This document shows, piece by piece, positions 2,759-62,994 of a stretch of 64,000 nt of DNA. The stretch is from Tribonema minus. Taxonomy: Eukaryota > Sar > Xanthophyceae > Tribonematales > Tribonemataceae. Position numbers and translations under genes: made by a program. Every line of letters starts with the position of its first letter. The first letter of the stretch is position 1. The notes below the pieces were generated by a model, which had not been told where the DNA came from, made no database searches, and saw only the letters and a program-made list of their open reading frames with translations. The stretch lies in assembly GCA_017506865.1 (NCBI GenBank), contig JAFCMP010000547.1, positions 806,001 to 870,000 of the forward strand, read 5' to 3'.

Positions 2759-5700
2759 TCAACTCCAATAGCCGCCGAAAGTTGCCGTTGCGGAAGTGTG
2801 CCACGGCGGGTAGTCCTGCAGGTTGCGCGTGATCTGGTAGAAGCACGCCGCGATGAAGCCCCCCAGGTACCCCCCAATGAAGGGGACGGGGGCCCAGCCC
2901 CTGCGACGGCGGGGGCATTGGCGGCGGACGGAGGAACAGCGAGGCGGCGGCGGTTGGTTGGGTTGGTGCTGCCGCCGCTGCGGCACGGCTCGGCGGCACG
3001 AGTCAAGGGGGCTGGGAAACGGAATGAAGTTCAATTCTGCGTGGCGGCAGCAGCGCGTGCACGGCGGCGCGTGCGGTGTCTGGTCAGAGACGCAATTATG
3101 CGCGCAACTGGTGGGTCGTTGCTGTTGCCGCTGCGGTGCGTGTCGGCGGCACCAGTCAAGGGGGCTGGGGGAAACGGAATGAACATCAACTCTGCAGAGC
3201 GGCAGCAGTGCACGTGCGGTCACTGGTCCGGGACGCGAATTGTGCGTGCAACCTCAGGACGCCGGCGCCATAATGATACAAGCGGTTCGCTTCATTGAAA
3301 TTGCATTCTGGCCAGCGCGGCGTTCTCACCACTCGGACGAACTTCAAGACGCCGGCGACATCTTTCTTTAAGCACTGAACCTGAGTAAATCCTACGCAGA
3401 AGCGGCGTTCTCACCACTCGGACAACCCCTTGTTGGGCAGCGGCAGCAGCGCATGCGGTCTTTGGTACAAGACGCCGATCATGCATGCAGCCTTCAAGAT
3501 GCCGGTGACATCATTCTTCGAGCGCCTCGTTTCATTGAATCCTACCAAGCAGCAACGTCATCTCACCACTCCAAGAACCCCTTGTTGGGCAGCGGCAGCA
3601 GCGCGTGCGCAGCGCGCTGTGTCTGGTCCACGACGCCGATCATGCGTGCAACCTCATGAGTAAAGACGCCGGCGAAAAAAATCATTGTTCAAGCACTTCG
3701 CTTCATTGAATCCTACCACGCAGCAACCTCATCTCACCACTCGGAGGAGCCCTTGTTGGGCAGCGGCAGCAGCGCGTGTGCTACGCGCGGGCCGAGGTCC
3801 CTGGCGGGGTTGGCGCAAAAGCCGGTGGGCCCCGACAGCGCCATCATGAGTGCCATGAATGCGAACCCCAGGTAGTTTGCGTACACGGCGGTCCAGCCCC
3901 CCGGAGGAGGGTCCTCGTTTAACAGCTGCGTTTATGGTAGGGTTGACGGGGGCGTCGGACGCGAGCCAAGTGGGGCTAGGGTTAGTGCGCTGCCTTGACA
4001 AACATGCATGTTGGTGCTTGACACTTTCATACTGAGGTATGCTCTGTGCGTTTGGACTTTGAGTGTGTGGCGATCTGGGCGTACACGGCAGAGTACAGCG
4101 TCCCGGTGGAGGGTCCTCGTTGAACAGCTGCTTTTTTGGTAGGGTTGATGGGGGCGTCGGACGCGAGGTAAGTAGGGTTAGAGTTAGTGCGCTGCCTTGA
4201 CAAACATACATGTTGGTGCTTGACACTTGCGCACTGAGGTATGCTCTGTGTATTGTGACTTGGAGTGTGTGGCAATCTGGGCGTACACGGCAGAGTACAG
4301 CCGCCCGGCGGAGGGTCCTCGTTGAACAGCTGCGTAGGGTAGGGTTGACGGGGGCGTCGGACGCGGGCCAAGTGAGTGCGCTGCCTTGACAAGCACATGA
4401 GCTTCTTATAGGAACTTCACTAGTGTTTGACACGGACACATATCTTGAGGTCTTGCTAGTTCAGGCCCTACTGCCAGCAAATTGTGAGTCAAGTCGGTCA
4501 TGTCAGCTGCAACTGCTCCACAACATGGAACAATGCTGCTGGAAGTACTTCATTTCAAATGCGTTGCTTATGAATATGTACACAGTGTATTGTATGTTCG
4601 GACTTCATGTATGCTGTGTGTGGTTTGAACTTTGTATGTGAGGTATGCAGGTGTACATGGCAGGCTCAAGCTCCCCGGCGAAGGGTCCTCGTTGAACAGC
4701 TGAATCATGAATTGAATGGCGCGGAGCGAGGCGGGCCGTATGATTGTGCACGTATCAGGGACGAGGGGGGCAATTGTCTCTGACAGCGAAGGCTCAACAA
4801 GTGCATCCTGCTTCACGCCTAATGCACAGATGCCATGCATATCCGCTGTTTTTCGATGTTTCAGCTCCAATCCTAACTCCAACAAGCCTGACGCTGATCG
4901 TACGCCCGCGCGCGAGACGCTGGTGTCAAACAGTGTCATTGTATACAAGCACATGTACTTTGAGGTGTACTTCTATACATGTGATGTATCAAAAGTACGC
5001 TTTGAAGTGCACATTGCTGCTTGAGTGCTTGTTGGCAAAGTTCTCACCTCTCGTCGATCGTTGAACAGAAGAATGGCCCAGACCAGTACAAACGTGCACG
5101 CCGTCTCGCTGATCTGCAGTCATACACCAATGCAACAAACCTCATGAGTGATGACAGTGTTGGGGGTGTTTGAACTGTGTTGCGGTGACGCAACAACGCA
5201 CTGAACTTCGCGTTTGATGACAAGAGTAGGGAAAGCGGTGATGCAAGAAGTCACGCACTGAACTTCGCGCGTGATGACAGAGTTTGGGCTGTTCCGAATG
5301 CAGTTATGGAACAAGTCATGATGCAACAAGTCAAGCATCGAACTTCATGTACGATGACAGAGTTTGGGGTGTTCCGATTGCAGTGACACGAGCTATCGCG
5401 CGTTGGACCATACGAATGACAACAAGCCTCCAGCTTAGCAATCGTGCTGATGCGTGACCTGCTGATCAGCGCGCACCGCGACGAGGAGCGGGAACCCCCC
5501 GTGCGACCAGATCGGAGCACTGCGCATTGCGGTGACTGCCAGGCAAACTTCAAGCGCGCTGTCAACGGTTCTTCACTTCAAATGATCACGTGCTGAGCGG
5601 ACTCAGAAAGTTGTGACTCTCCGATGTGTAAGAGAGCATGATGTTGGACCGGCCCCCACCTTATCCACACATCACACTGTGCGTCATCTCCTTGTCTTCA

Positions 5701-8700: not shown

Positions 8701-11700
8701 CACCGCGCGCTGCCCCCCCGCGCAGCAAGGTTATCACTGCTCGACGAGAGTGACAGTGTAACTCGCGCGTGCGAGCGCCGCTGCTGCGCGCGCTGCAACT
8801 CCCCCGCGCCGTCGCCGTCGTACCAGACGGACGCGCCGCGCGTGTCCGACGCGCACTCCGGCCGCACGTGTGTGGCACAACTTCAAGTCAATACTTCAAT
8901 GCAGCAGATCACGACAGAAAAACCAAGCACGTGCGAGCGCCGCCGCCGCCGCCGCAGCCCCGCGCGCTGCTGCTCCCCGCCCGCGCCGCGCGTCGTACGA
9001 GACGAATGCGCTGCGCGTGGCCCAACATCAAGTCACTGCTCCAACAGAGCAGTAGGGCACGTACGTGCGAGCGCCGCCGCCGCAGCCCCGCGCGCTGCCG
9101 CTCGCCCCCCGCGCCGCCGCCGCCGCCGCCGCCGTCGTACGAGACGGAACGCGCTCTCGTGTGTCATCTTCGGCCGCACGTGTGCGTCGATCCACCGCGA
9201 CCGCCGCACGACACAAATGAGCCGCGCGTTGCCAGACTTCAAGTCAGCATACTTCAAGTCTTTTTACCTCAAGTCAGTTTCCTTCAAGTCAGTATACTTC
9301 TACTTCGTATCAGTATACTTTCAGGTCAGTATACTACAAAAGCAGCACGTACACACATACGTGCGAGCGCCGCCGCCAGAGCTGCCGCTCCCCGCCCGCG
9401 CCGCCGCCGCCGCCGCCGTACAAGACAAACACGCCGCGCATATCCAACGCCAGCTCTGGCCGCACGTCGTGTGGCCCAACTCTAAACCGATACTTCAACA
9501 GAGCAGTAGTGCACGTACGTGAGAGCGCCGCCGCCGCAGCCCTGCGCGCTGCCGCTCCCGCCCCGCGCCGCCGCCGCCGCCGCCGCCGTCGTACGAGACG
9601 AACGCGCTGTCGCGCGTCGCCTCCGGCCGCACGTACGCGTCGATCCAGCGCGGCGGCTCCGGCGGCGGCGGCGGCGCAAGGCTGAAGTGCGGCAGGTACG
9701 CCAGGTAGACGACCACAGCGCCGAGGAGGGCCCCCGCAAAGTCGGCCGCCATGAGCGCGAGCGCCTCGCGCCAGCCGCGCACGCCCGTGAGCGCCTGGAC
9801 AGTGCACGGGGGGGGTGGCGCGGGGGGTAGGCAGGTGAACACTTCTGAGCGTGCAGCAGGAAAAGTGGGGCTTGTGGCCAGCGGGGCACGCCCGTCAGCG
9901 CCTACATGGCGCGCGCGTGGGGGTGCGCGTTAGGCAGATGCGTAATCATTTGAACATGCGGCGGGAAGAGTGTTTTGTTTTGTGGTACGGCGCGGCGGCG
10001 GCGGCAGCAGCGGCGGCGGCGTCAGCGGCGGCCGCGGCAGTCAGGGAGGAAGTCTTGTGAGCGCGCAGCAGAACGGATGGATTCTGCAGCACAGTGCGGC
10101 GGCGGCGGCGGTGGCGGAAGCGCCCCTGCGCGAGGACCGCGTGCCCATTCCTCAGCAAACGATGGGCATGCACGTGTGCTAGGAGAGCGCCCGCGGCCGT
10201 GCACCGAGTGCGCGGCGCTGCTGCGGAGCGGGCAGGGGTATGTATGTATGTATGTACTTCCGAAGTATTGACTCGCAACGGTGAGCGGTGACGCGAGGGT
10301 CACGCACGCGCCCGAGCGCGCGTGCGGAGCGCTGTCACGCAGCGACTCTACCTGCCTCACCCCCATCCCCTACGTAATCACTGTGCACACCCTGATTGCT
10401 TCAACAAACTTTGTTGAAGCTTATCATAAGTGCTGAAGTATGGTTAGGTCATCCAATTAAGCGTCTGTGGCGGTGCAAAGTGTCCTCTGTATGTCGAGCG
10501 TTGACATGACCAGCTTCTTCAACTTCAACCAATAGCGTTACGCTTGTCGGTGTTCTAAGGAAGCTGGACGCCAGATAAAAATGTAGTTTTATGCATGTCG
10601 GTGTTCCTCATGAATTTGGACGCCATATGAAAATCAAAGCCCTCCACCCCGCCTACGCGCGCTACCAGCGCCGCCAGACTCAGATGCCAAGTGTGTGCAG
10701 CAGCAGCACGCTGCTTCGTGCGACTTCACGGCAGCCTCCGGCGTTGAGGGCAGGGCCGATATGTATTGCGGTCGGCCTGGTGTGACGATGCGCCACGCAC
10801 TGTGCGCCGCTAGTGGTTAACCTAACCCTAACCCTAACCCGAAGCTAACCCTGAGCGGCGGCGCCGCAGCATGCGAACACTGCGTCGGAATGCCAGCCTG
10901 CATGTACCCAGCATCATGCGCGCGCACACACATAGTTCTGGAAGCTGGCGCGGTATTCGCACAACCTGCGCAATGCGCAAGCGTGACGTGCCGCAGCGTC
11001 ACTCTTGAAGTGCTGAATCTTCTCCATGCGGCAGCAGCGGCGGCGGCGGCAGCGGCGGCGGCAGCGCAGCACTGCCGTACGACTTGACGGGCACCGTCGC
11101 AAAGCTGCGCGAACGGTGAGCGGTCCATTACAGGTCTTTGAAGTAGTTCCTATGTGTGTTGAAAGTAGTGTTGTGGTGGTACGGCTCGGTGACGCTGGCT
11201 GTTGAGCACTGCCGCCGCGCAACAGCCCCCGGGCCGGTGGGCTGGTGGCGCCAGCTGCAGTAGCAACAGCAGCAGCAGTGGTGGAGCGCTGCCGTGTGAC
11301 TGCCACTGTTGCACACAATCGTTGCGCGCTCACCACTGCGAGTCATTCGTTATTGAGTGGCTAGGTTATGTTAACGACTCGAGGTAATTTCGCACGCACC
11401 TGCGCAAAGACGAAGGCGGGGTTGGGCACGGTGCTGATGTGTCCAAACATGGCTGTGGCGATGAAGAATGCCTGCACACAACACACCGTAATCAGAGCGC
11501 CAGAGATGTCAGCGTGACGCGTCACCCCGCCCGTAAGATGCAATGGTGGGGCCGACACCGACGTCAGGTGTGAATGTGAAAGGCGACAATTTTCCAAACC
11601 AGCAGCGCACAAAATATGGGTTGTGAGGTGCAGATTGTGCGTGGGCACGACCGGCAAGGGCTGAGCAATGCCATAGTCTGTGCCATTGCGGGTATGAACC

Positions 11701-13879: not shown

Positions 13880-16800
13880 ATGTCCCGCAGCAGATTAAGA
13901 GACCTCCACAGCAGGGCAACGAAGACACGCAGTCTGTCGCCTTCCACCCTTGAGCTGGGGCACTTCTTCGAGCACAGAGCTCCACGACACGCTGCCGTGA
14001 CTGGTATCGCCACCGGGGAGCCAGCAGCAGCGCAGCAGAGTCCTCAGTCGCCCTCAGTAACAGGCACAATCGGGACAGGTCTCGACTACTGCGCCAGCCC
14101 AAGCAACGATGCGACGGAGGAGCAGTCCTCCACAGACACGACAGCAGGGCCACCTGCCAAGCACCACGGGGGAAGCAGGACCGGCTGCGCAGCGCACCTG
14201 AGGCGCTATCTAAGGAAATGGCGAGGCGTGCCAGAGAAAAAGCGGGTGGACGTCAAACTGCTGCTGTTCCCTCACTGGACGGAGATAGCGGTGGCGTTCA
14301 CGGGCAGTTTCATCAGTATGGGTGCTCTGGCTGCCATACACTACGACTGGTTCTCCAACGATGACATCACGCTGCAGATGACCATGGGTGAGTGACTTTG
14401 ATTGTGTGTTGAAAGATGTGCTGGAGGCGTGTTTGGAAGATGACTGGAAGTTCTGGCGTTGCATGCGCCGTCTTGAGACAGGCAGGAGATGCACAGGAGA
14501 TCACAGACTTGACTCACTGGCGACTACGTTGAGTCGTCAACCTTCTCTGCCTCAGGTAGAGTATAGACAAGCACCACGCTTGAACATCGCAGTAACTTGA
14601 TGCATTCTACAATTCTACATGTGCGTGTTGCTATACCTCAGGCAGTGCTATCAGAGTGAATCACTTAAGATGTGTAGCCACAACGTATTTCGTGCAGCCG
14701 TTGAATCATGCAATCATGATGCAGCGTGCATATCCGTTGCACCAATGTCTCGTTCTTGAAAATGCCGAGCCAACTACTACATGTTGGCACTCCGTAGTGA
14801 CGAAGACTTCAAGTTTTCAGTGGCTAAACGCCTCTTAGACGACCCACATACTAGGCTGCAATTTCTGTCATAAAACGCCAGCAAGTGGGTGGGTGTCAGG
14901 GCAATCTCGGAATAGATCTGCGCTCTGGCTGAAGAAAAGGGATGTGTCCCGTACTTCAAGCTCCTGCAGCATGCTGCGTCACCAAGCACGCTGCAAGCCA
15001 GAGCTGCCAACCGCAAGCGGCACGGCGCAACGCGTAGGCACTGTTGATCGCACTGCATGCTGAGCACTGCTGATGATACTACGCGCGGAGCATCAGCAGT
15101 GCCACAAGTACGCACGTCGCCCTCGTGGCCCTGGCGGCAGCGGTTGCGATTCCGCAGCTGCATGCAAAGATACTATTTGGTGGCGGAGGCCACAACGGGT
15201 TACGCATCTAAGGCCAATCTCTCCAGTTTTGCTGTGGCCTTCTCACGAGCTGCTGTTGCTGATGGCGCGGCCACGGTCCCTGCTGATTGACATCGCTACG
15301 TATTTGTGGTGCCAACCCACTGATTTCAGTGGCCACGCGAACGGCAGTGCACGGGGGTGCGCCGCGTGCCCCCGCCGTGCGCGTCGCGGCGGCAGATGAC
15401 CGATTCAGCTCACGCCGCATGGGCATTCAGCTCAGCACCAGAAGGTCGTATGCGTGCCAACACGGCAAGCACTCCGTCTCGCAGCCGGCACAGCTCAGCT
15501 CGCCTCGGCGCAGAAGCGCGTCGTCCCGCAGGCGCATTCGGCGCCTCGGCAGCGCTTCTCAGCGCGCGCTGCACGAAAGAGTTCCCTCATGCAGCAGCTT
15601 CGCAACCAAGTACTCAATAGCTGCGTCAATTGCCAATCGGTAGGGTGATCTCACGTGCCTCCGTCAGCGCCCGCAGGCCTCACGCGCTCAGCCTAAACCC
15701 TAACCCTAAGTAGGCCCTGGGTGCATGCGCGCGCGGCGGCACGACGCTCGAGATCGCTCCTCTGCCGCATATATATATATATATGCGCGTGCGCCCCGCC
15801 CTTTGGTGTGCGGGCTCGTTCGGCGCCATGGCTGCCCCCTGCACACTTCGCTGATGAGCCCGCTCACGCAGCCGTACAACGCATCGATCATCGCCAAGTC
15901 AGTCGGTGATTCCACACGTGATGGCGGCAACAGGCCTGCCGCACATGCAGTCCTGCGCACGTTCACTGCGGCACGTCGCCCAGACACCTTCGCCTGTTGC
16001 TCCACGTTTGCGCAGGCTCGTTCGGCGCCACGGCGGTGCTCCTCTACGCTGCGCCCATGAGCCCGCTCACGCAGCCGCGCAACGCATCGATCACCGCCAA
16101 GTCAGTCAGGGATTCCACACATGATGTCGGCAACGGGCCTGCCGCACATTAACAGCTTCCGCCGCTCGTTGCTCCGCGTTTGCGTAGGCTCGTTCGGCGC
16201 CACGGCGGTGCTCCTCTACGCAGCGCCCATGAGCCCGCTCACGCAGCCGCGCAACCTGCTCGGCGGCCACATCCTGTCGGCGATAGTGGGCGTCACGGTG
16301 CGCATCCTCATCACCGAGCAGCTCTGCGGCGCGCACGGCGCGGACTGCCGCTGGCTCGGCTGCGCGCTCGCCGTGTCCATCTCGATCCTCATCATGCTCT
16401 TCACCGACACACTGCACCCGCCTGGTGAGTAGGGACAACTTCAAGTATGTTCTTCATGAGGACTTCAAGTTGCTTGCCGTGTCCATCTCCATCCTCATCA
16501 TGCTCTTCACCGGCCATGCTGCACCTGCCGGGTGAGTGACAACTTCAAGTGTGTACTTCAACTCAAATATGCTCCACTGACCTGATGCACCCGCTGGGTG
16601 AGCGGCAACAAGTGGGTACTTCAAGTTGATGCTGCCCGCCTGTTCGCCGTCTCTATCCTCTTCATGCTCTTCACCGACATGTTGCACCCGCCTGTGAGTA
16701 GTGGCAACTTCAAGTGTGTACGTCAAGTGGGCTTGTTCGTGCAAAGTGTGTACTTCAAGTGGCCTTGTTGGTGCAGTGTCATCACCAACTTCAACACCAT

Positions 16801-19740: not shown

Positions 19741-19776
<36 letters not shown>

Positions 19777-20670: not shown

Positions 20671-20703
<33 letters not shown>

Positions 20704-21413: not shown

Positions 21414-21452
<39 letters not shown>

Positions 21453-21627
21453 CTGGAGATGGCGGAAATTGAATCCGGCGCTGCTGCTGCTGCTGCCGCT
21501 GCCGCGCCGCTGCGGCAGCTCTTGCTGCTGCTGAGGCGCAAACTGAAAGTCTGCACTGCCCCTGCCGCCACTGCCCTGCATCGGCTGAGGTGGGAACTCG
21601 AGTTTAACACTGCTGCAGTTGCTGCCA

Positions 21628-41057: not shown

Positions 41058-41790
41058 GCGCGTGGCGCTGGCGTATGGCGAGGGCGGCCTCGAGGAGGGG
41101 CGCGCGGTGCAGGTACGTAGGTATCATGTTCGTCAGCTTTAGCTGAGCAATGCTGCAGAGCTTGCGCAGAGGACTGTGTCCGCGAGGGCTCGCCGGCCCG
41201 CGCTGCGACCTACGGCAGCGACGCCGCTTCGAGCGTACTTGCGCGGGTGTGAGGGTGGCCTTTGTTTGTTTTGTGCGTGATGCGCTGAGGACAGCTGTGT
41301 GGTGTGCATGTGGGACGCAGTCAGAGCGCTGGCTGGGGTGAGTTCGAGTCGCTATCCTCAATGACGCGCACAGCCAAACTGCTCATGATACTGCCGTCCT
41401 TGTGCACCTTGATACTGCCGTCCTTTTGCGCCTTGCCCTTCTTCGCCTCGCCCTGATCCCGTGCGGGAGGCGTGCCAGTGTGAGGCAACTGGCTACCCGG
41501 TTGAAGAAAGCCCGACCAGGTGGTGCGCATACCTTTTGATGCAGTTGCAAGTGCCCCCGTCTTAACAGCGCTGTCCGCTGTCACGCCAACGCAATAGTAG
41601 CCCTGTCTTAACAGCCGTAAACTCTGTCACGCCAACGCAGGCGGCGCTGCGGGTACCGGAGGCGCTCTTCGTCACCGCGCCGGGCGCCGACGCCGCGCGG
41701 AGCGCTGCCGACCAGTCCGCCGCAGTGCTGAGCGCTGCCACAATGCTGTTTGACCGCCTGTGCGCTGCCACTGCTGCCGCGCCCGCATGA
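40239..41790 (+). CDS. RBBP9/YdeN-like serine-hydrolase homologue with plastid-type presequence, active site lost
   Basis: Exons 40239-40436, 40705-41112 and 41641-41790 (TGA) are all phase 0 and give 251 residues. Residues 1-20 are a signal peptide (MLLVPLLLLTALALCDTAHA) followed at once by FVPP and an Arg/Ser/Pro stretch. This is the bipartite form used to enter secondary red plastids. The body follows the RBBP9/YdeN alpha/beta-hydrolase order: IVLLPDTRAD, then FNNKRYERFWLGLMGS, AQELHITPHTLVIAAGAAAD and AILVNAGDLYH. Where active family members have GHSSGA around the catalytic serine, this one has AAGAAA. I also see no C-terminal catalytic His. It is probably a pseudoenzyme or has another role. 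A polyglycine run of about 16 interrupts the loop after residue 177. The exon 3 assignment is weaker than the others. Confidence 0.78.
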
Positions 41791-41814
41791 TCTGGCGGTA
41801 CTGCGCAGTGAATC

Positions 41815-42015
41815 AGCGCGCAGCAGCTGTGTTGAGCGCTGCAACGGTGCTGGCTGACCGCCTGCGCGCTGCTGCTGCGGCGGCGGCGGCGGCCGCGTGA
41901 TCTGGCAGCGCAGCTCAGAGAGTCGGTGCTCAGCGGTCCTGTTGTGCGCTGCTGCAGCGGTCCCAGCGACCGGCCGCGCGCCGCTGCCGCACCGGCGCGG
42001 CCTGCCCACAGCGCG
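41815..42015 (+). repeat. Copies of RBBP9-like exon 3 3' end, including its stop codon
   Basis: The block gtgctgagcgctgccacaatgctgtttgaccgcctgtgcgctgcc ... cgcatgatctggc (41732-41795) recurs downstream at about 41832-41906 (gtgttgagcgctgcaacggtgctggctgaccgcctgc ... gcgtgatctggc) and, more weakly, at 41937-42010. Period is about 100 bp. Confidence 0.85.
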
Positions 42016-44539: not shown

Positions 44540-47500
44540 CTACTTTTTGTTGGCGGACGCGACACTGTGCGACGACGCCACCTTGGCGCTCGCGGCGCCG
44601 ATGCAGCCAAAGTACTCGCCCCACAGCGTGAAGTTCTCCTTGTTGGTGATGCCGTACGCGGTGAAGATGAGGATCACCTGATCGGCGCAGAGGACGGGGG
44701 TAGGGTTAGGTTTAAGACTAGGGTATAGGTTCAGGGTAGGGTTAGGATTAGGGTATGGGTAAGGGTTGACGCAGGCGTAGGGGCAGGGTGAGGGTGGGTT
44801 TGGGAGTATGGCGAGGGTGGGGCAAGGGCTAGGGGTCAGGGCCGGCCCTTGTTGTGATGTGAGACTTGCGGCCGCAGAGCAGATGGCGGTGGCAGTGGCA
44901 ATGCTCAGCGCCATGCGCGTTGTCTGACGCATGGCGCGCTTTGACACCAAAGCTTTTCTTCCCGCGCAAGCATGGAGAAAGCGCACGCGCAAATTGGCAC
45001 CGCCCCCTGACAAAAACTGCGGCGTGCCGGAAACAAATTTTTCCGAAAGCGCGGCCACCACCGGCAGACAAGAGGCACATCAACACCACGTTTGAAATAC
45101 TTGGCAACCCTGAACCTTGCTCTGACCCTCAATGCTAACCCTAACACTCAAGCACGTGCCGTGCGCCGCACCGACGAAGATCACTTGGCTATAGGACGAG
45201 GCATGATGGTGAGCGCTAGGGTTTGGTGTCAGGTAAGTCCCCTATATATATACCGCGCAGTGCTTTAGGTGCGCGGCTGGGTTACTATGGCCAGAATTAG
45301 GGTTGGGGTTTGGATGAATCCGAGGGTTAGGTGGCTGCAGATGCTGGCGACCGCAACGCTCAGGAGCGTGGCCAGCGTCATGCTTCCAACTAGGGCTTGA
45401 AGTAGGGCTAGGGTAGGGTTAGGTGAGTCACCTGGCCGTAGAGCGAGATGATAATTGCGACGGCGACGGCCAGCGGCATGCGCGTCGGCGCGGCGGGCCC
45501 GCACACGCCGATGTACGCGTCATTGTCCTCGCCCTTGTAGTTGGAGAAGACGCACGCCGCCCACTCCAGGAACGCCGCCTTGAACGTCTCAGTGTGCGTC
45601 TCTGCGTAGAACTGCACGCGTGGGGGGGGGGAGGGGGGGGGGGGGGGGTATTTCTTGGGTTAGGGCTCGGGTAAGATTATGAACAAGGTTAGGACTAGTG
45701 TAGGGCCAGGTCTGTCGGTGAAGATGCACGCCGCCGACTCCAGGAACGCCGCCCCGAACGTCTCGGTATGCGTCTCCGCGCGGAACTGCACCTACCACAC
45801 TGCTTCATGAATTTCATGAGTGAACTTCCATGAACGTCACAAAATAAACCTGAACTAGCTTCGACACAGATGCGCGCATCGCCTGTCGTGAATTGCTGCA
45901 GCAGCAGCACAACTTCAAGGTGCTCACCTTGAGCGCAAAGATGACGCACCACCATGATGAGGAACGTCAACCTCAAGACTCGCCTTGAGCGCGAAGATGA
46001 CGCACCACATGATGAGGAACGTCAACTTCAAGACTCACCGTGAGCGCAAAGATGTCGCATCACATGATGAGGAACGTCAACCTCAAGACTCGCCTTGAGC
46101 GCGAAGATGACGCACCACATGATGAGGAACGTCAACTTCAAGACTCGCCGTGAGCGCAAAGATGTCGCATCACATGATGAGGAATGTCAACTTCAAGACT
46201 CACCTTGAGCGCGAAGATGACGCACCACATGATGAGGAACGTGCAGACGAAGAGGAACGGCGTCTTGAACATGGCCAGGTTCTTGGCGGCGCCGCCCTGC
46301 CTGCTGACGCTGCGCACGATCGCCGTCACGACCGCGAGCATGAAATACAGCCCGATGAGGCTGATCACCGCCACGGGCCCGTAGAGCGTGCCGAAGACGA
46401 CGCCCTTGGAGGTGCCGCTGACGTTGAAGCAGTACGACGTTCCCGCTTCGTAGCCCTCCACGCCGAGAATGAGGCGCGGCACAATGTGGACGACGATCGG
46501 CAGGAGCATGGAGAACGCCTGCAAGAGTACGCGGCGGTACATAATGAGTTCATGTTTAGTTCACAACAGTACATGATGCGTTCACATGAGTTCACAGTAG
46601 GCCGTGCCCGCTTCGTAGCCCTCCACGCTGAGGACGAGGCGCGACACGATGTGCACGACGATCGACAGGAGCATGGAGAATGCCTGCGGAAATACACAGC
46701 GGTACGTAACAAGTTCATGTTTAGTTCACAGCAAACATGATAGTTCCCATGTGTTCACAGTACGCATGCCAGCCTAGCCCTCTACGCCGAGGATCAGGCG
46801 CGGCACAATGTGGACGACGATCGGCAGGAGCATGGAGAAGGCCTGCGGGAGTACAAGCAATACACAATGAGTTCATGTTCAGTTCACAGCGGTACATGAT
46901 GGGTTTCAGTAAGGTAACATTACGACATGCCAGCCCTAACCCTCTACGCCGAGGATCAGGCGCGGCACGAGGTGGACGATGCTTGGCAGGAGCATAGAGA
47001 ACGCCTGTGGGGGAGTGCACAATTATACACAATGAGTTCATGTTCGCTCAAAGCAATAAAAAACGTCCTTGACTCATTCTGGCAAGGAAATTTTGCGTGG
47101 AGCCAAGCCCTCATCGCGTAGTAACTGCAAGCCCTCATCGCGTAGTAACTGCAAACTGTGATGCTCCACGTTCTCGAGCTGCTTGAAGGCTAGCGGGGCG
47201 GGCACAAATCGAAGTTGGAGTTTACTGGTCCTCGCGACGGTCTCATTCGGTTGCTAGATCGACGGAAATCATGGATGGGAATGCTAGCAATCTGCTGACG
47301 TGCTTGAGTGATTCAGGCGAGCCGAGCTGTGCAGAGGCTTTGGGTCAGGGTTGGGGTTTAGGGTTAGAGGTAAGCTTAGGGCTAGGGTTATGAGCCCTCA
47401 CCGCGTAGGGTTAGGGTTGGGGATCAGGTGAGGGTTGGGGTTAGGGTTGGGGTCAGCCCTTACCGCGTAGTACTTGATGTAGTGCTCCACGTTCTTGAGC

Positions 47501-50500
47501 TGCTTGACGGCGCGCACCCAGACGTCGAAAGACTGGCAGAGCCACCAGCACGCCACGGACATGGCCAGGTAGCCCAGCATGACGGCCTGCAGACAGACAA
47601 CAGCGCAGTGGTGAGCAACAAGGGCATATACATACTGTATACCTGTTAGTATACACGTACTTCTATATACTTGAGGTATACATATATGTATACTATGTAT
47701 GCTGTCGCGTTACTGTGCTATGCATACTGTACAAGGACATCGCCAGATAGCTCGGCATGATGACGGCCTGCGGACGGACAACATTGCAGTGAGCAACAGG
47801 GCGCGTACATTACGCTTTCGGAGTATAAGCGTATGTATATGTGTGTGTGTGTGCGTGTGTTGTGCTGTGCATACTGTATATGGTTGGTAGTCGAGTGTGA
47901 TGGCCTGCGGACACCAACGCAGCGGTCAGCAACAATGGCGCATACAACATACTTCAAAGTACATACACGTACGCTTATGGCGAGAGTTAGAATCAGGGCC
48001 AGGGTCGTGCGGTGGCTGCTACATCGCTCATCACACACGTAAAAAAACTTTACATTCTGGTCCGCGTTCGTATGGCCCCAACACTGAGGCTGCGGCTATG
48101 GTGTATGCACAGCACATTGCTCAACACACACTTGGAAGGTGCAGTACCCGCTGGAGTTCTGCGTGTTGGCGCAGACTTTGTCCTGGCACTCAAGCTAGGG
48201 CTAGGGCTAAGTTCAAGACTCAGGGTCAAGTTGAAGCTGCGCACGCGCACCTGGAACGTGCAGTATCCGCTGGAGTTCTGCGTGTTGGCGAGGGTGTTGT
48301 CCTGGCAGAAGCGGTCGTTCATGGTCGGGTACGCCATGTACTGCACCGCGAAGATGAGCGAGACCAGCAGCGATTCAGCGCTCAGCATGATGACGATGGG
48401 CTGCTTGCGCTTCTTCTTGAAGATGGTCCACGTGGCGACCATGAAGACCCCCAGAGGCACCGAGATCTGTTTGGGGCGAGGGGGGGGGGGGGGTAGTGCA
48501 AGGATGAGTTAGTGACTGACTTAAGTTAGCGACGGACTTAAGTTAGTGAGTGACTTAAGTTAGTGACTCTGACTCGATGAATTCATGATGAATCAGCACC
48601 GGCTTGCGCTATCTCTAAAAGACGGTCCACGTGCGACCATGAAGACTGCCGAGGGCACCGAGATCTGTCGACTCAAAAGCAGAGGGGAGCAAGAGAGGGG
48701 GATGTGTAAGGTCGAGTCGGTCACTGATGAGTTCAAGAACAACGATGAATCAGCACCAGCTTGCGCAGCCTGTGTCAGTGCTCGCCACGCGCCTCGCGTG
48801 CGCGGCTGCAACGCGCTGCCCCCGCAGCGCAGCTGATTGACAACACGGCTCCGCTGCCGGAATGTCTTGCGACCGCCCAGAGCCTTGCATACTTGCTCTG
48901 CAGATACTGCGCTGCCGCTGTGGAAAATGGAGGTCTCTCTTCATTTGCGGAGCGAGTGTCTGACTCTACTCTGACTCTACTCGACGGTTGAGCTGCGGGG
49001 CCAGACGCACCGGTAAAGGCACGCCAGCACACCGCCTGTGCGCACATGTGCACAGGCGCGCCGCCCCAAACGCTGCTGCACCGCAAGAGCTTGAAGTGCA
49101 CAATTGAAGTGACTCGCCGCCGGTGATTGAAAATGAAGCACTTGAGTGCACAGTTGAAAAAGAAGTGACTCACCGCCGTGAGCATGATGGCCCACGTCCG
49201 CTGACTGAGCATGTACTCTCCACTAAATAAAAGACGCAAAGCACTTGAAGTGCACAATTGACGTGACTCACCGCTGTGAGCACGATGGCCCATGTCTGCA
49301 TGACGTGGTACTCCTCGTTGGTGAAGAGCGGTGCGGGGCAGGCAAGCGCGCAGCCCGTGCCCGGCACCCACGTGTTGTGCGGATTGTCGGGGTGCTCGGG
49401 GACCTCGAAGCCTGCCGGGCAGTCAGTTTGTGCCTGAGAGAGGGGGGGGTGGGGGGGGGGTGGGGGTAAATGATGACAAGTGGTGAGTCGCACTTAATGG
49501 GTAGTCAAGGGGGCGGAGGGGCGGGAACCACCACTTGTCACACTTCGAGGCGTGTGACAGTGTGACCGGGGTGGGGGGGGGGGGGGGGGGGTTGGAGACG
49601 AGGTGTGGTGATTCGCGCCAGCACATGCTACTATTTGTGTTCAGTTTGACCTGTGCTATCACAGCACCCCCCCCCAAATCATGTACCGCGTACGTGCTGG
49701 TTCTCGAAGGACTTGGCGTCCGTCTGCAGCGGCACGCGGCCGACGCCGGGCTGGCCACTCTACTTCAACTTCAACCGTGTCATGCGGGCATCGGTCAGGC
49801 AAAATTTGGACCAGCGCACGCTACTGTTTGTGCAACATGCACGTTTCACACAGCCCCCCCCCCGTTCCCCTGCATCACTCACCGCGTACGTGCTGTTCTC
49901 GAAGGAGTTGGGGTCCGTCTGCAGCGGCACGAGGCCGACGCCGGGCATCGGTATGCTGACGATCGTCTGCCGCGCCGCGGGAAACTTGAAGACGCCGTCG
50001 GCGCCCTGCGCGGTGCAGTTCTGCGCGGCGTCGGACCCCTTGGCGGCGGCGAGCGCGATGAGCCCCTTGCAGTCGGCGTTGTACGCTTCGCACAGCGTGC
50101 GCGCGGGGTACTGCGGCATGTACAGCTCGGGGAGAATGGTGGCGAGCGCGGGCTGGCCCTGCGGCGGCATGAAGCCGATGCCGCAGATGAGCTTGTGCGC
50201 GGTCGTGAGGCACGCCGCGCTGAGGAAGACGGGCAGCGACGCGAGCTTCTCCTCGATGACGCCCTCGATCATCGCCTGCACGACGCCCGGCGCCGCCATG
50301 GGCGCGAGCGCGGCGTTGAGCTTGGGCGCCCCCGGCACGTACGTCGTCTCGACAATGCCCTCGCACACGCCGCCGGGCCTGTAGGCCTCCTTCATGCCCG
50401 CGACGGCGGTGCGTGCGGCCGCCGCCGTGAGCGCGTTGCACGCCTGCGGGGCCTCGGCGTACACGGGGAAGTGGGTGGCGGGGTCGATGGCGGCGCAGTT

Positions 50501-50944: not shown

Positions 50945-53547
50945 ATTGCTTGTTCACTCGTCGCGCTTGCTGTGCTCTCTGTGCGTTCTGCTGGCGCGCA
51001 GACATTCTGCATGAAGCATAGACGAGACAGAGGGAGTTACAGTTCCTACAGCTGCAGCAGCCAGGCCCTAGGTGCTTGCACGACATGCTTGCGCGGTCGT
51101 GTTGACACGCCAATGTTGCTGACTTTCGCGTCGAGCGAGGCCCAGGTCGCTGCAGGGGGGGGTCCCCCGTTTTACGGCGGTTACGGCGCTTGTAACTGTT
51201 TGGTTTTATGTGTATGAGCGTAGTTCGGTCGTTCGTTCGGTCGTGGACTCGGAGTGACAGTCACAGTTGCTGGGGTGATTTCTAGGTGCGTGTGCAGGTG
51301 GGGCGGGGTGCGCATACACAAATCAGTGGACGCAACTGTGCCCGAGAAGGGGTGCTTGTCAATCATGTAACTTGCACGCATATGCAGGTATGTGCTGGGC
51401 GGGTGGTGTCGGGGAAGTCTGTGTCCACTGTGAGAGTGCAGCATGCGCACCTGATGAAGAGCAATCGATTCTTGTCTGCACGGCATACTGCAACATAGCC
51501 TGCTTTCATGATGCCCAAGCGTGGTTCTGGACAGCAGAAGGCACCAAAGATGCTGCTGCGACCAACACAGTTCAAGAGTCATCATGGCACTTGGCTCGGT
51601 CTGCAGGAGCATTAGCAGAAGCTGCTGGATGCAGTGACAGCGTACTTTCAAGCAGGATGTTTCTTGGCTCAGGTAGTCGGGCTTGAGCGCATGCAAGGGC
51701 CTGACCCCAGCTCACAATGCTATTGCCGGCGTTGAGCACTGCGCACCGTGCGATGTGTTGAAGTAACGACAGTTGTGTGGGCTTTTGCACCGCTGAGCAA
51801 TTGATGACAAAGCATTGTGCACACACATGCCCCTCCCCCCTTCCGCCCTGCCCTCAGGTGACCCAGCATCCCAATCAACTACATAGCTGCGCCACTACTG
51901 TAGTAAGTCTGCCGACACCGCAGGATGCGGGGAGTACTTGACAATGAGATCCACCCGCGCAGTGCTGCGGTGACAACTGACAATGACATTCAACAATGCG
52001 TGACAACAAGCAGTTGACAACACTGACAATCAGTTTCGTACGCTGCGCCTTTCGTTACAGCGGGGCATCGCCTGAAGGGGGCGCTCCACTGACTGATGAT
52101 GAGGCCTCACGGGTGCAATCATGGTCGCAAAAACACCCTTTGGAGAACCCAAAAAGACCTACTTCTACTTGCCAGGAACGATGTGCTGTCTGAAATAGAC
52201 GCAACTTGACCCCCCCCCCCCTCCCTCCTGCGCGTGTGCTATGGCACCTTGAAGAGAAACTGTGCGGCTGGCATCAGGCGTTAGCGCGACAAAAAGTGCG
52301 CCGCCTCCGGTGCTGCCTGGCTGCGCGCCTAGGCGCAGGCGCAGCACTGAAAGCCTGTGAAGTCTGGCAAACCTCAACTTGAACTTGACCGCGGTGCACG
52401 CATCAGCCGTTGTTCCTCCACCTCATCTATTGCCGACGGTGTTGTGCTGTTCTCATGGAGTCGAACCCGGCACCACCTTCCTCAGACAGGACTAGGCCAA
52501 CAGTGCGCACAGGCACACAGGTGGTGTGCTACCTCTGGCCGGCAGGCGGGGGGAGGGGTGTCAAGTACTTCTGAAGTATACTCACCTACTGCTTGCAGTA
52601 AAGTCTGGTCAGCGGTATGCTGCAGAGACAGACCGCTGGCGGCGTGTATGTTTGCTGACACCTTTGCCCCCCCCCCCCCCCCCAATGTGCCCGCCCGCTC
52701 CTACTGCACAAGCAGCTGTGCTGCGCCCCTACCGCTGCACTACCGTAATACGCTACCTGTAACTACGAACGTACTCGCTTCCCTGCCACTATTAGTACTC
52801 GCGCGCACACACGGCGTGCACGCCCGCATGCGGAAAGTGCTGTGGGCTGCAACAGCGCCACTGCCCGCAGGACAATCCCCCTACCCCCTACCCCCCTCCC
52901 CCATGATGACCCTGTAGGACTGCACAAAATTGGCCGCCGCGTGGGGCACCGCGCTGTAGCTACCCCCTGCATACCTCAGCAGTGCTCAAATTGTGCGCTG
53001 GCTGGCGCCTTACTGCCCGTCAGGCCGCCCCCGAAGAGGGGAGGCCTGAGGGGGACTGCTGTGATTGAGCGCTGCTGCACTATATTTCGGCCCTTTCAAA
53101 AACCACTTTCTCTTGTGATAGCGCCCCCCGTACCACCAGCCCCGAAAGGATTCCCGGTGAAACGAGACCGCCCCGCAAGATACCGCAGAATACGTGCGCC
53201 GGTGTGCTCGCCCCCCCCCCCCTTCCTGCCCCCCTGACAGCGACCCCAAGGAGCCCCTGTTCAGAGCGATAGAGCACTGCTGCTCGGGCTGTGCCGCACC
53301 CCATGCGAGCCGCCTGCTGCCGCCGCAGCTGGTGCTGCCGCCGCTGCCGCCGCAGCAGCTGCCGCCGCCGCCGCTGCTGTCGACGCAGCTGCCGCCGCCG
53401 CAGCCGCCGCCGCCGCAGCCGCTGTCACCGCAGCTGCCGCCGCCACAGCTGCCGCCGCTGCAGCTGCCGCCGCCGCAGCTGCTGCTGCCGCATTATGCCT
53501 CAGGCAACGCCCGCGTCGCCGTGAGAGAGACCCGTATGACAGCGCTC
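50945..53547. other. Intergenic, no gene recognised
   Basis: About 2.6 kb between the Frizzled-like start and the kinase stop. Long C tracts on the plus strand lie at 52208-52220, 52668-52683 and 53211-53222. The plus strand at 53300-53490 is a (ccgcagctgccg)n-type repeat whose Pro/Leu/Gln reading is low complexity. No exon could be supported. Confidence 0.4.
53300..53500. repeat. CCG/CAGCTG-rich minisatellite
   Basis: About 190 bp of ccgccgcagctg units lie directly downstream of the kinase stop codon. All six frames stay open for long distances because of composition, so open frames here are not evidence of genes. Confidence 0.8.
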
Positions 53548-55449
53548 TCACCACCCCCACACGCCAACGCCGATGGCAGCGCCGCCGCTGCCGCCGCCGC
53601 ACGGACTCGCACACGCGCTCATCAGGCTGAGCGTGCTGCTCACGCTGCCCGTGCTCAGCGCGCCGCCGCCGCCGTCGCCGCTGCCGCCGCTGCTGCTCCA
53701 CGTGAAACCGCCAGTGCCGCTAAAGCCGCCGAAGCCATTGCCAAACCCGCCGCCGCCGCCGCCGCTGCCGCTGGGCGGCCAGTTCCACGTTTGAGCGGGG
53801 GCGAGCGCAGGCGCGAGGATGGGCGGGATGGCGGCGGCGGCGCTGGCAGCAGCGGCGGCGGCGCGCGCGGCGAGAGGGTTGAACGGGCTGCGCACCTGCC
53901 TGCGCGCGAGCCGCTGCCAGTCCATGCCTGGGTGTGTTTGGGGGGGGAGGGGGGGGCAGCGGCGACAGTTAGCGCGTTCAGATGTGTCATATGCGGACGC
54001 GCATGGTTCCTGCACACGAATGCGTGCACGTGGCGCGGTGCGTCTGCTGCTGCTGCTGCTGCTGGGGTCATGCGCGCACGCGTGCGACTGCCGCCGACCG
54101 CCACGGCGCGACAGCCGCGCACGGCGCACCGCGGCTTGCAGACGCGGCACACGCATCGGAGCAAACCCGCATGGCAGGTGCGCGCGGTGCACTACTTCAT
54201 AGCATGAAGAGACCGGCAGTTACAAGCGACGAAACTGACCTGCAAAGAAGGCGTGCGCGCGCACTTCCCGCGACCCCCACGCCCCCAGCCGCAGCGTCGC
54301 GTTCGGCTCGAGGAGCGCTGCCACCAGGTCCCTAGCCCCCCGCGACAGGTACTGCGGCACCTTCAGCTCGTAATCTGGCTCGGCGTTAGGGGTGTCGTGC
54401 TGCAGGGGGGGGAGCGGGGGGTCGAAGTCGCTGCGGCCTTCAGCAGCAGTGCTCAGCTCCTGGACGGGCCACGGCAGGCTGCCCACGAGCATCTCGTAGG
54501 TGAGGATGCCTAGCGCCCACCTGAACGGGATGGGGCAAGATGGGGGGAAAAGAGGGGGGGCAAGATGAAGGGGAAGGGGAGGGAGGAGAAAGCGCATATT
54601 GGTTGAGTTTGCGGTCAACGTGCTAGGTATTTTAGGGGGAGCGGGGGAGAGGGGCGCAACAATGGGTAAGTGCAGACCGTATTGTTTCACTTTATAGGTA
54701 AGTGCAGACCGTACTACTGCAGCTTATGGTCACCATGCTATAGATAGGGGAGAGGGGGGGAGGGGGGGTACAGGCACAACAACGGCAAGCGCGTAGCAGG
54801 TTGGCCGCGTGCTCATGGTCAACGTGCTATGGCTGGCGCGGTGGGGGATGAAAAGGGTCGTTTGTCCTGACTGATTTCACTCACAAAATCCGCGTGAGGC
54901 AAGGTGGACGACGCTGAAAGCAGCAGCAGCAGCAGCAACAGCAGCAGCGCTCATCACACGACAGCAGTGCTGCAGCCGCCGCCCCGTGCGGCAGCGACGC
55001 ATACCCTACATACTTCAAAGTATCATGCGCGATGTGAACGGTACGGTGGCCGGCCGTGAGCTTGATGGATCCGGCATCCATGAAGCGCTGAACGCAGGAA
55101 TTCACACAAAACACAGAGGCAGACGGCCACGTAGCCGGCGGCGGCAGCAGCGGTCGACAGCGGTGCTGGAGCCGCCGCCGCACGCCGCGGCGGCGCACCC
55201 GCAGCAGCAGCAGTATGCCTCCGTTCACATCCATTGACCTCACCTTGAACTACAAGCGTGCACGGCATGGCTGCACAAGGCGGACGGCGACAAACAGCGG
55301 CAGCAGCAGCGCTCGCCAGCCTGCAGCCGCCGCCCCACGTGGCGTTACCGCTGCCGCAGCGGCTGCGCCTCTCACCGTGTGCGTTGCGAACGCGTGGCGC
55401 TGAGCTCACGTCACAAAACATGAGCGAGGCAGACGGAAATGACGCAAGT

Positions 55450-55488
<39 letters not shown>

Positions 55489-58894: not shown

Positions 58895-61800
58895 TCATGC
58901 CTTCTCCTCCTCGGGAACAGGCACTGCAGCAGCAGCAGCAGCGCTCGGCTCCTCCGTCGGCGCGTCCGGGTTCACCGTCGTGAGCTTGATGGCCACGAGC
59001 CGCGCCTCGCTGGACACCTTCTCGACGCTCGCCGTGACGCCGGGGCCGAAGAACGTCGTGTACTTGCGCACGCGCGCGGGGTCGACCCACATCTTGAAGG
59101 GCGTCTCGGGCGACGAGAAGATCATGGAGAAGGCGAGCTCGCCGTTGGGCGCGACCTCCTCCTTGAGGCCCTGCAGCTGCGGGTAGTCCGACTGCGGGAG
59201 GACGAGGCCGAGCGCCTTCACCGTGGAGTCGAGGTGCGCCTCGTCGCCGTAGCGGTGGCGCGTCACGTCCTGCGCGTGAGGGTCATGCAAAGTTGAAGCT
59301 GAAGTTCATGAGCGGGGTGACACCATCATTGACGCCAGGGCGCATTCACAAGTTGCAGCTGCACCGTGTAGAAACCGGCGCTTTACGAGCCCGCGTGGAA
59401 TTGGGCATGGTCTCCGTGGCCTTCTCCTCAAACAGCGCGGGTGCTCGACAGTTCCACCATGAACCAAGCTATGCAGACCCTTCCACACAAGCAGGTGGGC
59501 ACTGCCATACTGCAACTTCTGTGTGGCAGAGCAACTTCAACACGCAGACGCGCGCGTGCGCACCTTCTTGATCTTGCGCATGGTCTCCATGGCCTTGGCC
59601 TCAAACAGCGCCGCCGCGGCGGCGTGCTCGAGACTTCGAACATGAACCAGGCTATTCATAACCATGCTTTGACTTCAATGCGCAGTCGCGCGTGTGCGCG
59701 CGCACCTTCTTGATCTTGCGCATGGTCTCCGTGGCCTTCTCCTCAAACAGCGCAGCCGCGGCGGGCGTGCTCGAGACGCCCACGGGCGCGAGCTCCGCGT
59801 ATTTGAGCGCGAGCCCAATCAGCGCGACGGGGATGCCGTACACAAACCCCAGCCCCGAGAGCCCCGCGCCGCCGCTCGTGAAGTACTCGGCGAAGGACGC
59901 CGTCGTGATGACGACGCCGCCGATGAGGAACGCGTTGCCGAGAGAGAAGCCGCGGATCTCGAACGGCGCCTCGCCCGAGACGTTGATGCCGCCCGCAGAG
60001 ATCTGCGCGGGGCCCGTCTCGGAGTCGTCGAAGTCGTTGGAGACCTGGAAGGGGGGGGGGGGGGGTTAGGGGGGGCTGCCCGGGGACGGGGGGGTGCAGT
60101 GTGCAGTTTGGCAGCCGCTTCTCCCCGTTCCCGTCACAGTCGGAGTGATAATGAACCACTGCATAGCGCCTTGAAGTACATGTTGAGGTTGAGGCGCAGC
60201 TGCGTAATCTGTGGGTATTGTTTGATATGGTAGGAGTGGATCAACGCATTTTTATACAAGGGTGGCCGGGGGGACCCAGAAGAGGATAATACTAAAGTCT
60301 CTCCACGGATCATTCAATGTATGCAACTGCAACAAATGGGCTGCAATGGATTTGGAAGAATGCCAGGCCTTTAGTGGTATCACATTCACCAATTCAGAAT
60401 GCACAGTATACACTGTGAAGTATGCCAGCACTGTGAACCATTGGTGATAGTATGAGCGGCAGGGCCCCTTAGACCCTGACGTTGACTGATAACCAGCTGG
60501 GCGGAGAGCACCTACAATACTGCCAGCAACTCGCACGTACATTCAAAGGTGTTATGAATGTGTTGTTTGAGGCCATTGATTAACAGCGTATAGCACCAGG
60601 GGTGAAGTGTCTGATGTGTGCCAATGACGCACTGTCAGTGGTGGACAATGCTTACGGCCAACAGTAAAGGACCATGGTTTCCTACGACACGTGCATTATC
60701 ACAGCTCTGCTCCTGCCACCTGAAGTGAAATCCGCAGAGCTATGTGAATGCAGAATTTCACTTTGCGCGTGTTGGCAAATTCAGAGCGCCTCATCCAACA
60801 GAATAATTCTTGTGAATAAACACTTTCATGTACAAATTCATACATAATAAGTGTGCACTGGCAGAAAAAAAGTGTGCGAAGAAAGCATTCATAAAAAAAG
60901 TACTTCAAGTGGTGGAAAGGGTGATACGTCTACGCATGTTCACATGGGGGTTGGGAACTAGAGATAACAGAGACCTGGCACGGTGGATGGAGTGCAGCCG
61001 AAGTACCAGTTGCATCTGTCCATCGGCTGTGAAGGGCAGTGCTACAGGCCCGAGCAACATGGTTTTACATAAACTGAAAGACCATACATCTGTCTATCGA
61101 CAGACATTTGTAGGTGTTGTGGCCTATGTGTGTAGTTCAAGTATATACACAGACACTACTTGTGGCTGTAGTTAGACAATTGGTGGATGTTGAGCCATGT
61201 CCCATATGTGTATACATATACTTCAAGTATACGTTGACGTATACATATGTAGACCACACACTTGGCAGCACCGGTGGTCAACATTGTCACCACCGTCAGG
61301 TAAGCTCGGCACAGCTGCTCATTGCTGGGAAGTACATGCCGCAATGGCTGCTCGCCACAGCAAAGTTATGATATATATACATGCACTTCCGAAGTACTAC
61401 TTCACAGGAGAAGTGCTGCGAAGTCTATTGTGAAGCGGGCAAGACCACATGCCAACCGCACTTGTGGAACTTTGCCGCATGCCCATGGTCATACCAGCAA
61501 CGATGCGCACACACGGCGCCTACAGGTAATCGAGTAATTCTAAGAGTAACAAAAAGCCATGTCTTGGCATGTTGCAGTACCAAGTTTTGGCAACGCCCTT
61601 ACAGATGTCACTGGGCATTTTCATGCAGCAATGGATCGCCACATCGTGACGTGAGTGCTGCTTCAACGTAGCGGGCATCTGCACCAATGTGGTGCCAAAG
61701 TTGCCTAAACCCCGTAGTCAGCTGAAATCATTTTAAGGCAAATGCGCCGTTGGTACCGGCTGCCACAGCAAGTAGAACCTATCAGCAGCAGTGCTCACCC

Positions 61801-62994
61801 CCATGCTCCGTGCCTCCTCATAGGTGAGGTTCTGCCAACTACATTGTGTATTCAGGCATGCCATGTGCTCGTTGTTTGTTGCGACATAGGTGTGAAGGTC
61901 AATGCCTGCATATGCAGTGATTGTATTGCGGTACAATCAGGGCAGCGATTGAAAACTATAAGGTTGGCTGGAGAACAACAGGCCGCTGCATTGCAGGCGC
62001 GAGCGTGCGACAAAGCTAGAATTGGTATCTGTATTGCAGGCCCTTGCAGACGCTATGGCTACTAATCGTCACTGACTGGACAAAATCAGTTCAAAATGAG
62101 AGTGACAGATGGCCGTGCTTCCGCGACAGCTTTGCAAATGTTAACAGACGGTCAATGACATTGTAGGCATTAATCAGCTGTGTACGATTGTCAGTGAAGG
62201 ACCAATAAACCGCTGAGCTAGTTGCCCTGTCGAAACGGAGCACTGCCTAACAACCGCCATGCGCTTGCTTCGCCCTTACTGGGTCAGACTCAATCCAGAT
62301 CATCATGCATGCCAAACACAGACAACTGAAGTGTCTCGTACAGGCTGGCGCGTGCAGATGCCCTTGAAACCATTTGCATCGAATATGCAAGCTGCAGGCA
62401 GGCGTTCAGAAGGCTAACAAATCGATACAGTAGTTCAAGTGTTCAACAATTGAGAGCCCTCCTGAATCGTGCTGGCATCACCTTAGATTCTCTCGCACTG
62501 GACATGTTGTGCATGAGAGCGCCTGGCGCGCAATGAGTGTGCGAGACTGCACGACAATCGCCGGCGATTTGGGATTGACTTCGGTTTGTCAACAAGGTTT
62601 GTTTGGCATCTGGCACCTATTTGGCACCCAAGAAGCACGGACACTCGGCCAGACCAGCGCATCCAGCGGCATGTATCAAACTGCTAACAATGGCACATAG
62701 AAGCTGAGGCGACGCACTATCACACAACATGGTGCTTACGACGATGGCCGAATCTAGAATGCTGGTTTGCAACGCGCATTGACGTCTTGTCAGCCTCGCG
62801 CTGTTCCATGCACTTGCCTTCATTGCGAAGCACTGATGCCGCCGTTGTTGAGAGACAGCCACACCCCTCCGTAGCGCCACGCCAACATGCTGCAAGCGAG
62901 CTCTAGGCACCAGCGCTGCTCCACTTGAGGGCACAAAAGCTGAGCATGGTACGGCAGCCAGCGCTGCGGCCAGGGCCGTCACTTTAATCTGCAT
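58895..62994 (-). CDS. Plastid-targeted DUF2854 protein, 4 exons
   Basis: Exons 62994-62818, 61831-61799 (33-base micro-exon), 60044-59706 and 59269-58895 (TGA) are all phase 0 and give 307 residues. Residues 1-19 are a signal peptide (MQIKVTALAAALAAVPCSA), then FVPSSGAALVPRARL, the secondary-plastid bipartite pattern. The exon 3 core has ASFAEYFTSGGAGLSGLGFV and YGIPVALIGLALKYAELAPV, which match DUF2854, a two-helix family of cyanobacteria and plastids with no settled function. Exon 4 has QDVTRHRYGDEAHLDS and continues the conserved soluble part to an acidic tail. The micro-exon (NLTYEEARSMG) is less certain; exon 1 can also join exon 3 directly in phase. The exon 1 donor is GC type (AATGAAG|GCAAGT). 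The likely site is the thylakoid or inner plastid membrane. Confidence 0.85.
59395..59650. repeat. Copies of DUF2854 exon 3 3' edge
   Basis: The edge (gcgcaccttcttgatcttgcgcatggtctccgtggccttctcctcaaacagcgc, 59700-59753) is copied at 59558-59612 almost unchanged and at 59405-59440 without the donor. Copies continue with gcggcgtgctcgaga-type exon sequence. Period is about 145-150 bp. Confidence 0.93.

Follow-up and report, generated by a model that had tools for sequence, protein, structure and literature searches.

Introns in a 64-kb stretch of Tribonema minus DNA, hereafter the window (contig JAFCMP010000547.1, positions 806,001 to 870,000, assembly GCA_017506865.1), carry copies of the neighbouring exon edges with the splice site included, and this exon-edge copying is a widespread habit of the genome. 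Such copies had been described in an initial annotation of the window and were confirmed: direct local repeats lie on the edges of strong exons, as called by a gene finder, both in the window and beyond it. Ordinary local tandem duplication, very active and tolerated at splice junctions, is probably the main explanation.

The sequence examined comprised the window and 298,427 further bases of one 158-Mb eukaryotic assembly (554 contigs), and all frequencies come from this one genome. Conserved domains (WD40, kinesin, light-harvesting, dynein), rather than repeat content, guided the choice of the extra loci. Most counts refer to the window plus 52 loci, 302 kb in all, a set which includes two overlapping locus pairs (L019/L023 and L034/L037). 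A recount with the doubles dropped and each family counted once gave 89 introns, 178 splice edges and 45 junction and 15 internal families; before this there were 91 introns, 48 copied junctions out of 182 and 46 junction and 15 internal families. Kinesin, dynein, WD40 and light-harvesting exons of the same assembly served to train the gene finder. Of 63 known exons, many of them used in the training, it recovered 57, with 0 of 4 at L041. WD40 loci were left out of the set of exactly defined introns because the repeat makes profile positions ambiguous. Copies were located by their likeness to their own exon.

Self-alignment of the window gave 74 local direct repeat pairs at a spacing below 3 kb. 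For repeats less than 1.5 kb apart in the window and 44 partly overlapping loci, 241 pairs were direct against 1 inverted, and Markov-shuffled sequence gave 0 pairs at the same threshold; a slightly laxer threshold gave 415 direct against 4 inverted local pairs in the 302 kb. The nearest copies were a median of 165 bp apart (interquartile range 120-202). The statement that the copies lie in introns holds in part: repeats made up 23.0% of the introns lying between strong exons, but also 15.2% of the strong exons, 19.3% of what remains of predicted genes and 14.2% of the sequence outside predicted genes (302 kb). In exons, coverage is about 30% next to the edge and declines to about 10% by 100 bp inwards.

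By the gene finder's exons, 22 of the 32 repeat families in the window lie on a strong-exon edge, 2 inside an exon and 8 on no exon, and 20 copies could be assigned to a predicted donor or acceptor. Over all loci, 111 of 167 families touch a strong-exon edge, against 55.7 after random shifts (sd 5.1, maximum 72, n = 500); comparison with random positions was the test by which the initial annotation had proposed that it might be refuted, and the claim stands. Roughly one splice edge in four (48 of 178, in the 89 distinct introns) bears a copy. A looser count gave 111 of 368 edges, whereas stricter criteria left copies at 34 of 128 donors and at 30 of 130 acceptors. In the kinesin and dynein regions, where exons were fixed by profile, 46 exon-edge copies were found, distributed over 14 of 16 regions. 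The 22 introns with both ends fixed by homology held 24 junction copies, at 15 of 44 junctions, and 3 other families, two of which reach the junction with less than 12 bp of exon overlap. The spread supposed from the window is thus real, as it takes in unrelated genes (kinesin, dynein, WD40), many contigs and the genome-wide clusters of donor and motif described below.

The anatomy of the copies was tabulated for 128 of them, 70 at donors and 58 at acceptors, the two sides being alike. A donor-side unit consists of the exon end, GT and mostly 40-250 bp of intron, with the copy downstream; an acceptor-side unit consists of the intron end, AG and the exon start, with the copy upstream. The copied exon part is 20-92 bp (5-95% range; median 48), and source and copy are 107-531 bp apart (median 186, later copies counted), most often 100-300 bp, with the copy on the intron side. 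More than 40 bases of intron could be aligned in 63 of the 128 copies and 13-40 in a further 39. Among the 45 homology-anchored copies tabulated (a 46th was dropped as its flank was too short), the 60-bp intron flank of the copy matched the true flank in 33 (p < 0.05 against unrelated flank pairs). Young tandems of the full unit were also seen: 128 bp at 97% identity (L057), 146 bp at 90% (L016) and 130 bp at 91% (L070). An early reading of the high-identity pairs as short and non-tandem was rejected and ascribed to alignment selection, since pairs above 90% mostly align in the exon part alone. The copies are therefore direct local repeats containing an exon part, a splice site and an intron part, which is what junction-spanning internal tandem duplication is. 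Tandem arrays of similar units, as in a minisatellite, occur at some loci only (for example 55 bp x 6), and many families have just one extra copy; serial copying that leaves decoy splice sites behind, as the initial annotation had it, is nevertheless borne out. Over all loci, repeats cross 2 of 17 predicted stop edges, too few to judge the role of splicing, and 7 of 20 predicted start codons, predicted starts being unreliable. A case that had been reported past the stop codon of an RBBP9-like gene is plausible, as both copies of a 104-bp unit in the window carry a stop, but the unit could not be assigned to that gene.

The fate of the copies was followed by comparison with their exons. At codon positions 1, 2 and 3 respectively, 178, 156 and 355 of 2031 sites differ (8.8, 7.7 and 17.5%), and 10 of the 2031 codons in the copies are stops. 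Aligned intron parts, in which both sides drift, differ by 19.0%. The value at positions 1 and 2 is about half the intron value and that at position 3 nearly all of it, as would be expected if the copy drifts and constraint on the exon is confined to positions 1 and 2. Decoy splice sites are kept as GT in 59 of 70 and as AG in 50 of 58 (109 of 128), about what a change of 8-9% per base predicts, although a copy was listed only if it aligned up to the junction, so that retention may be somewhat overstated. On average, then, the copies are dead debris in near-neutral decay, and codon positions, stops and GT/AG retention in the 128 copies give no clear sign of selection for or against the decoys.

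With direct orientation, unit size, an intron part in most copies, near-neutral decay and a spread over many contigs all observed, ordinary tandem duplication could have produced the pattern as follows. Units of about 50-300 bp, nearly always direct, would be duplicated locally at the DNA level throughout the non-coding genome, presumably via slippage or break repair. Where a unit lies over one junction the gene would survive, the exon that is continuous with the gene keeping its own junction and the extra copy coming to lie within the intron; units inside an exon would be purged by selection. The extra copy would then decay neutrally while the exon stays, so that junction copies should be recognisable for longer, and repeated events at one spot would give arrays and a longer intron. 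The sites that are spliced are probably the upstream donor and the downstream acceptor, judging by the continuity of reading frame and profile.

The initial annotation had proposed a special process that copies junctions. Uniform tandem duplication was simulated; units internal to an exon or covering a whole intron were left out, exon and intron decayed unequally, and detection was identical. The share of detected families at junctions was 0.51 (120/236) if ancestral introns had 75% of their present length and 0.64 (142/222) if they had 50%. The need for a special process is weakened by this result, as the null alone gives 51-64%, but a modest excess persists, about 1.2- to 1.5-fold over the null. 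Uniform duplication with selection on exons mostly accounts for the pattern, and a small junction-targeted component is possible. Of the 15 internal families, six have an end within 10 bp of an edge, and reassigning them would give 51 of 60 at junctions; 45 of 60 is the fair figure because the simulation would also class such near-edge families as internal. A crude early test of junction against intron-interior coverage (14/44 against 19%) was replaced by these family counts and the simulation, because interior points may fall in either copy, and an exon-masking test (1/44 edge points) was discarded because alignments adjoining the mask get shortened.

Several results do not sit easily with ordinary duplication. 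The 45 of 60 distinct families at junctions in the 89 introns exceed both simulated shares (p = 1.2e-4 against 0.51 and 0.048 against 0.64), as do the 15 of 18 in homology-defined introns (p = 0.005 and 0.066). Almost no intron part (12 bases or fewer) is seen in 26 of the 128 copies. At 0.0065 per bp, indels in the exon part occur at less than half the intron rate of 0.029 per bp. A few exon parts are also better kept than their flank would suggest, for example that of L051, with 0 differences in 66 positions beside a diverged flank. The copies with almost no intron part and the overly conserved exon parts hint at conversion or at exon-only copying, and conversion from the exon may also account for the rare indels.

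A process targeted to junctions, in which breaks or stalling of replication or transcription near splice sites, perhaps at the word TTGAAGT/ACTTCAA, seed junction-spanning units, would explain the excess over the null, and is an unlikely alternative. The word is 11 times commoner than expected and occurs in introns 50 and 59 times in its two orientations, with no strand preference. Its density per kb is 5.73 over the 60 nt that follow a donor, 1.17 in the remaining intron sequence, 0.81 outside genes and 0.32 in exons. As the 7-9-bp word TTGAAGT(TG) or its reverse complement, it follows 43 of 158 donors at a distance of no more than 60 nt and occurs there in either orientation, one example being the array at 45910-46242. 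Genome-wide, AGGTGAGT followed by TTGAAGTT within 30 nt gave 218 matches against 23 for the reversed pattern, and AGGTGAGT with AACTTCAA gave 116 against 18, where one donor may yield several matches. Among the matches listed for the two patterns, at least 6 and at least 8 places were seen by eye to have two or more same-strand donors spaced about 90-285 bp apart; such serial donors with the motif independently indicate that donors have been duplicated in other parts of the genome too. In 13 of 50 first donor copies the duplicated unit ends at the 6-bp core (TTGAAG/CTTCAA), where 4.0 would be expected (p = 1e-4); for intron parts of at least 60 bp the figures are 8 of 37 and 2.1 expected. The core is present within 100 bp in 22 of 46 duplicated donors and in 34 of 137 other donors (odds ratio 2.8, p = 0.005; at 30 and 60 bp, p = 0.08 and 0.02). 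Against a junction-targeted process, acceptors show no link with the core (odds ratios 0.9-1.15), though acceptor and donor copies are similar in number (58 and 70), the word is within 25 bp of the joint in only 17 of 128 copies, repeats occur outside genes too, and the excess is marginal against the laxer null. The word was, moreover, first noticed while reading the joints, so that its statistics are post hoc. The element is a candidate cause of the junction excess. That it serves, in either orientation, as a hotspot of breakage or template switching, at which the junction is recopied, introns grow from their edges and decoys pile up that the spliceosome would have to ignore, is doubtful.

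It is far less probable that the copies are kept for a function, as cassette, poison or mutually exclusive exons or as splice-site buffers. Some exon parts are unusually well preserved, and the rarity of indels in them points towards function, but neither coding nor splice-site constraint of the kind expected of a functional duplicated exon was found on the copies; the codon-position pattern, the stops and the loss of GT and AG fit neutral decay, and the tabulated copies consist of a partial exon and one splice site. The suggestion that decoys are a source of alternative exons or new introns is accordingly not supported, decay being neutral on average and none of the 89 distinct introns showing the AGGT signature of intron gain, in which the donor region of an intron aligns to its own acceptor region. 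Small exons could still arise from a few decoys. Two decoy exon pieces (L042 2422-2488 and L048 5124-5182), with AG directly before and GT behind, resemble small exons and are predicted as such by the gene finder, so that splicing could include them as extra exons.

An artefact of assembly or of haplotypes is very improbable, as copy identity is graded from 64 to 100% across many contigs and nothing in support of such an artefact was found. Introners or another mobile element inserting beside splice sites and carrying exon edges can be dismissed: introners are common in aquatic eukaryotes according to an excerpt of PMC9860276, but the copies here were found by likeness to their own exon, no similar introns reaching both splice sites were shared by unrelated genes among the 91 introns, and of 42 inter-intron matches only 2 cover more than 70% of an intron, these probably being the same introns in the overlapping loci L019 and L023 (two shared intron lengths), while the 25 matches listed are short, most of them under 35 bp.

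The features of the window are collected in Table 1. Pfam supports three genes there, encoding TM_HPP, protein kinase and DUF2854 domains. In the first, the intron at 16425-16984 joins profile positions 33-108 to 107-157. The clearest case of exon-edge copying in the window is the 55-bp array. At the high end of its source exon the gene finder places the start of the gene, with no acceptor; the acceptor there, and with it the assignment of the 165-bp array, was read by eye only. The copy at 53316-53477 overlaps a 15-bp GC-rich repeat and may be a codon repeat.

Table 1 Source exons and copies in the window (positions of the 64-kb window; identity to the source; TRF, Tandem Repeats Finder)
Positions	Strand	Feature	Identity	Evidence
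4079..4395	-	Acceptor-edge copies, 202-bp period, of predicted exon 3734-3925	85%	
8768..9199	-	Donor-edge copies of predicted exon 9519-9794	87, 69%	
15807..16083	+	Upstream copy of HPP acceptor region and exon start; decoy AG lost (AC)	78%	
16156..16424	+	Source exon of TM_HPP gene; donor 16424/16425		Pfam TM_HPP 1.8e-28
16472..16560	+	First downstream copy of HPP exon end and donor; decoy donor CGG/GTGAGT (slash, splice point)	86%	
16647..16734	+	Second downstream copy of HPP exon end and donor	83%	
34316..34641	-	Donor-edge copy of exon 34839-35141	72%	
35967..36380	-	Three acceptor-edge copies of exon 35676-35814	86, 84, 68%	
41719..42001	+	Unit of about 104 bp x 2, coding-like end, stop codon in each		
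45714..45791	-	Acceptor-edge copy of exon 45432-45611	86%	
45910..46242	-	55-bp x 6 array: exon end, AAG/GTGAGT and TTGAAGTTG (about 15 intron bases)	95%	TRF; by eye
46204..46542	-	Source exon, multi-pass membrane protein (GPCR-like by eye); donor at low end		Gene-finder score 91; translation
46430..47056	-	165-bp array reading ...CCCGCAG and the start of exon 46204..46542		TRF 46449-47044; acceptor by eye
47130..47190	-	Donor-edge copy of exon 47464-47586	79%	
47732..47810	-	Acceptor-edge copy of exon 47464-47586	77%	
48129..48188	-	Donor-edge copy of exon 48251-48466	87%	
48602..48668	-	Acceptor-edge copy of exon 48251-48466	82%	
49136..49205	-	Donor-edge copy of exon 49272-49433	81%	
49685..49751	-	Donor-edge copy of exon 49883-50847	94%	
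53316..53477	-	Donor-edge copy of predicted exon 53552-53927	67%	
59534..59634	-	Donor-edge copy of DUF2854 exon 59706-60044	88%	Pfam DUF2854

Other repeats were also seen in the window. A large 21-bp minisatellite of the GGCGATGGCAGTGATCAGCAT type lies at 38045-38997 beside a predicted exon edge; this array and the GCN repeats seem to be minisatellite or codon repeats of the usual kind. Telomere-like (TTAGGG)n runs occur in 18 of the 91 introns and in the window at 8350-8428, 33860-33892, 44698-44767 and 47406-47453, and TAGGGTTA was counted 148 times on both strands of the 302 kb against 1.4 expected; such interstitial runs may mark repaired breaks. A cysteine-rich reading frame on the minus strand at 22722-23681 is presumably, by eye only, the EsV-1-7 gene of the initial annotation. 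Among the extra loci, very similar light-harvesting genes lie 17 kb apart at C490:817487 (+) and C490:834530 (-), with a third at C296:14307 (+), perhaps owing to recent duplication or a haplotig. The light-harvesting proteins of the assembly resemble those of the red lineage that bind chlorophyll a/c; a cryptophyte phycoerythrin alpha was looked for and not found, although the control gave no signal either, and GC content and CCCTAA repeats would be compatible with a haptophyte according to an excerpt of PMC11347835.

Where intron sequence originates has long been debated, and in most introns decay has erased the evidence. In this genome, visible local duplicates still account for 23% of the examined intron sequence, which makes intron growth datable and traceable for each junction. 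If the proportion of a quarter of edges holds genome-wide, which is an extrapolation, the genome contains thousands of natural tests of splice-site choice, each pairing a true site with a similar decoy about 100-300 bp away that shows no trace of being selected against. As to how the duplications begin, the element near donors is a concrete lead.

No report of the exon-edge copying pattern turned up in the literature searched. One of the nearest systems is internal gene duplication including exon-intron junctions, reportedly described by Gao and Lynch in 2009. It shares with the present case tandem duplication within a gene that takes in a junction and can add intron sequence, but the copied junctions here are very common (48 of 178), serial and decaying. 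Intron gain as described by Hellsten et al. (2011), according to an excerpt of PMC3443670, proceeds via tandem genomic duplication of an exon segment bearing AGGT. Local tandem duplication is the DNA event in both cases; there the duplicate makes a new intron, whereas here existing introns lengthen. Introners, as far as the same excerpt of PMC9860276 goes, likewise shape the introns of aquatic eukaryotes across whole genomes, but the copies here are local and no intron-sized sequence was seen to be common to unrelated genes among the 91 introns. In tandem exon duplication, including mutually exclusive exons, exon sequence is also repeated in the adjoining intron, whereas here the repeated piece is a partial exon with one splice site in near-neutral decay. 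Intronic minisatellites share the head-to-tail arrays and the variable copy number; the repeats described here differ from them in being anchored on an exon edge, with the splice site included.

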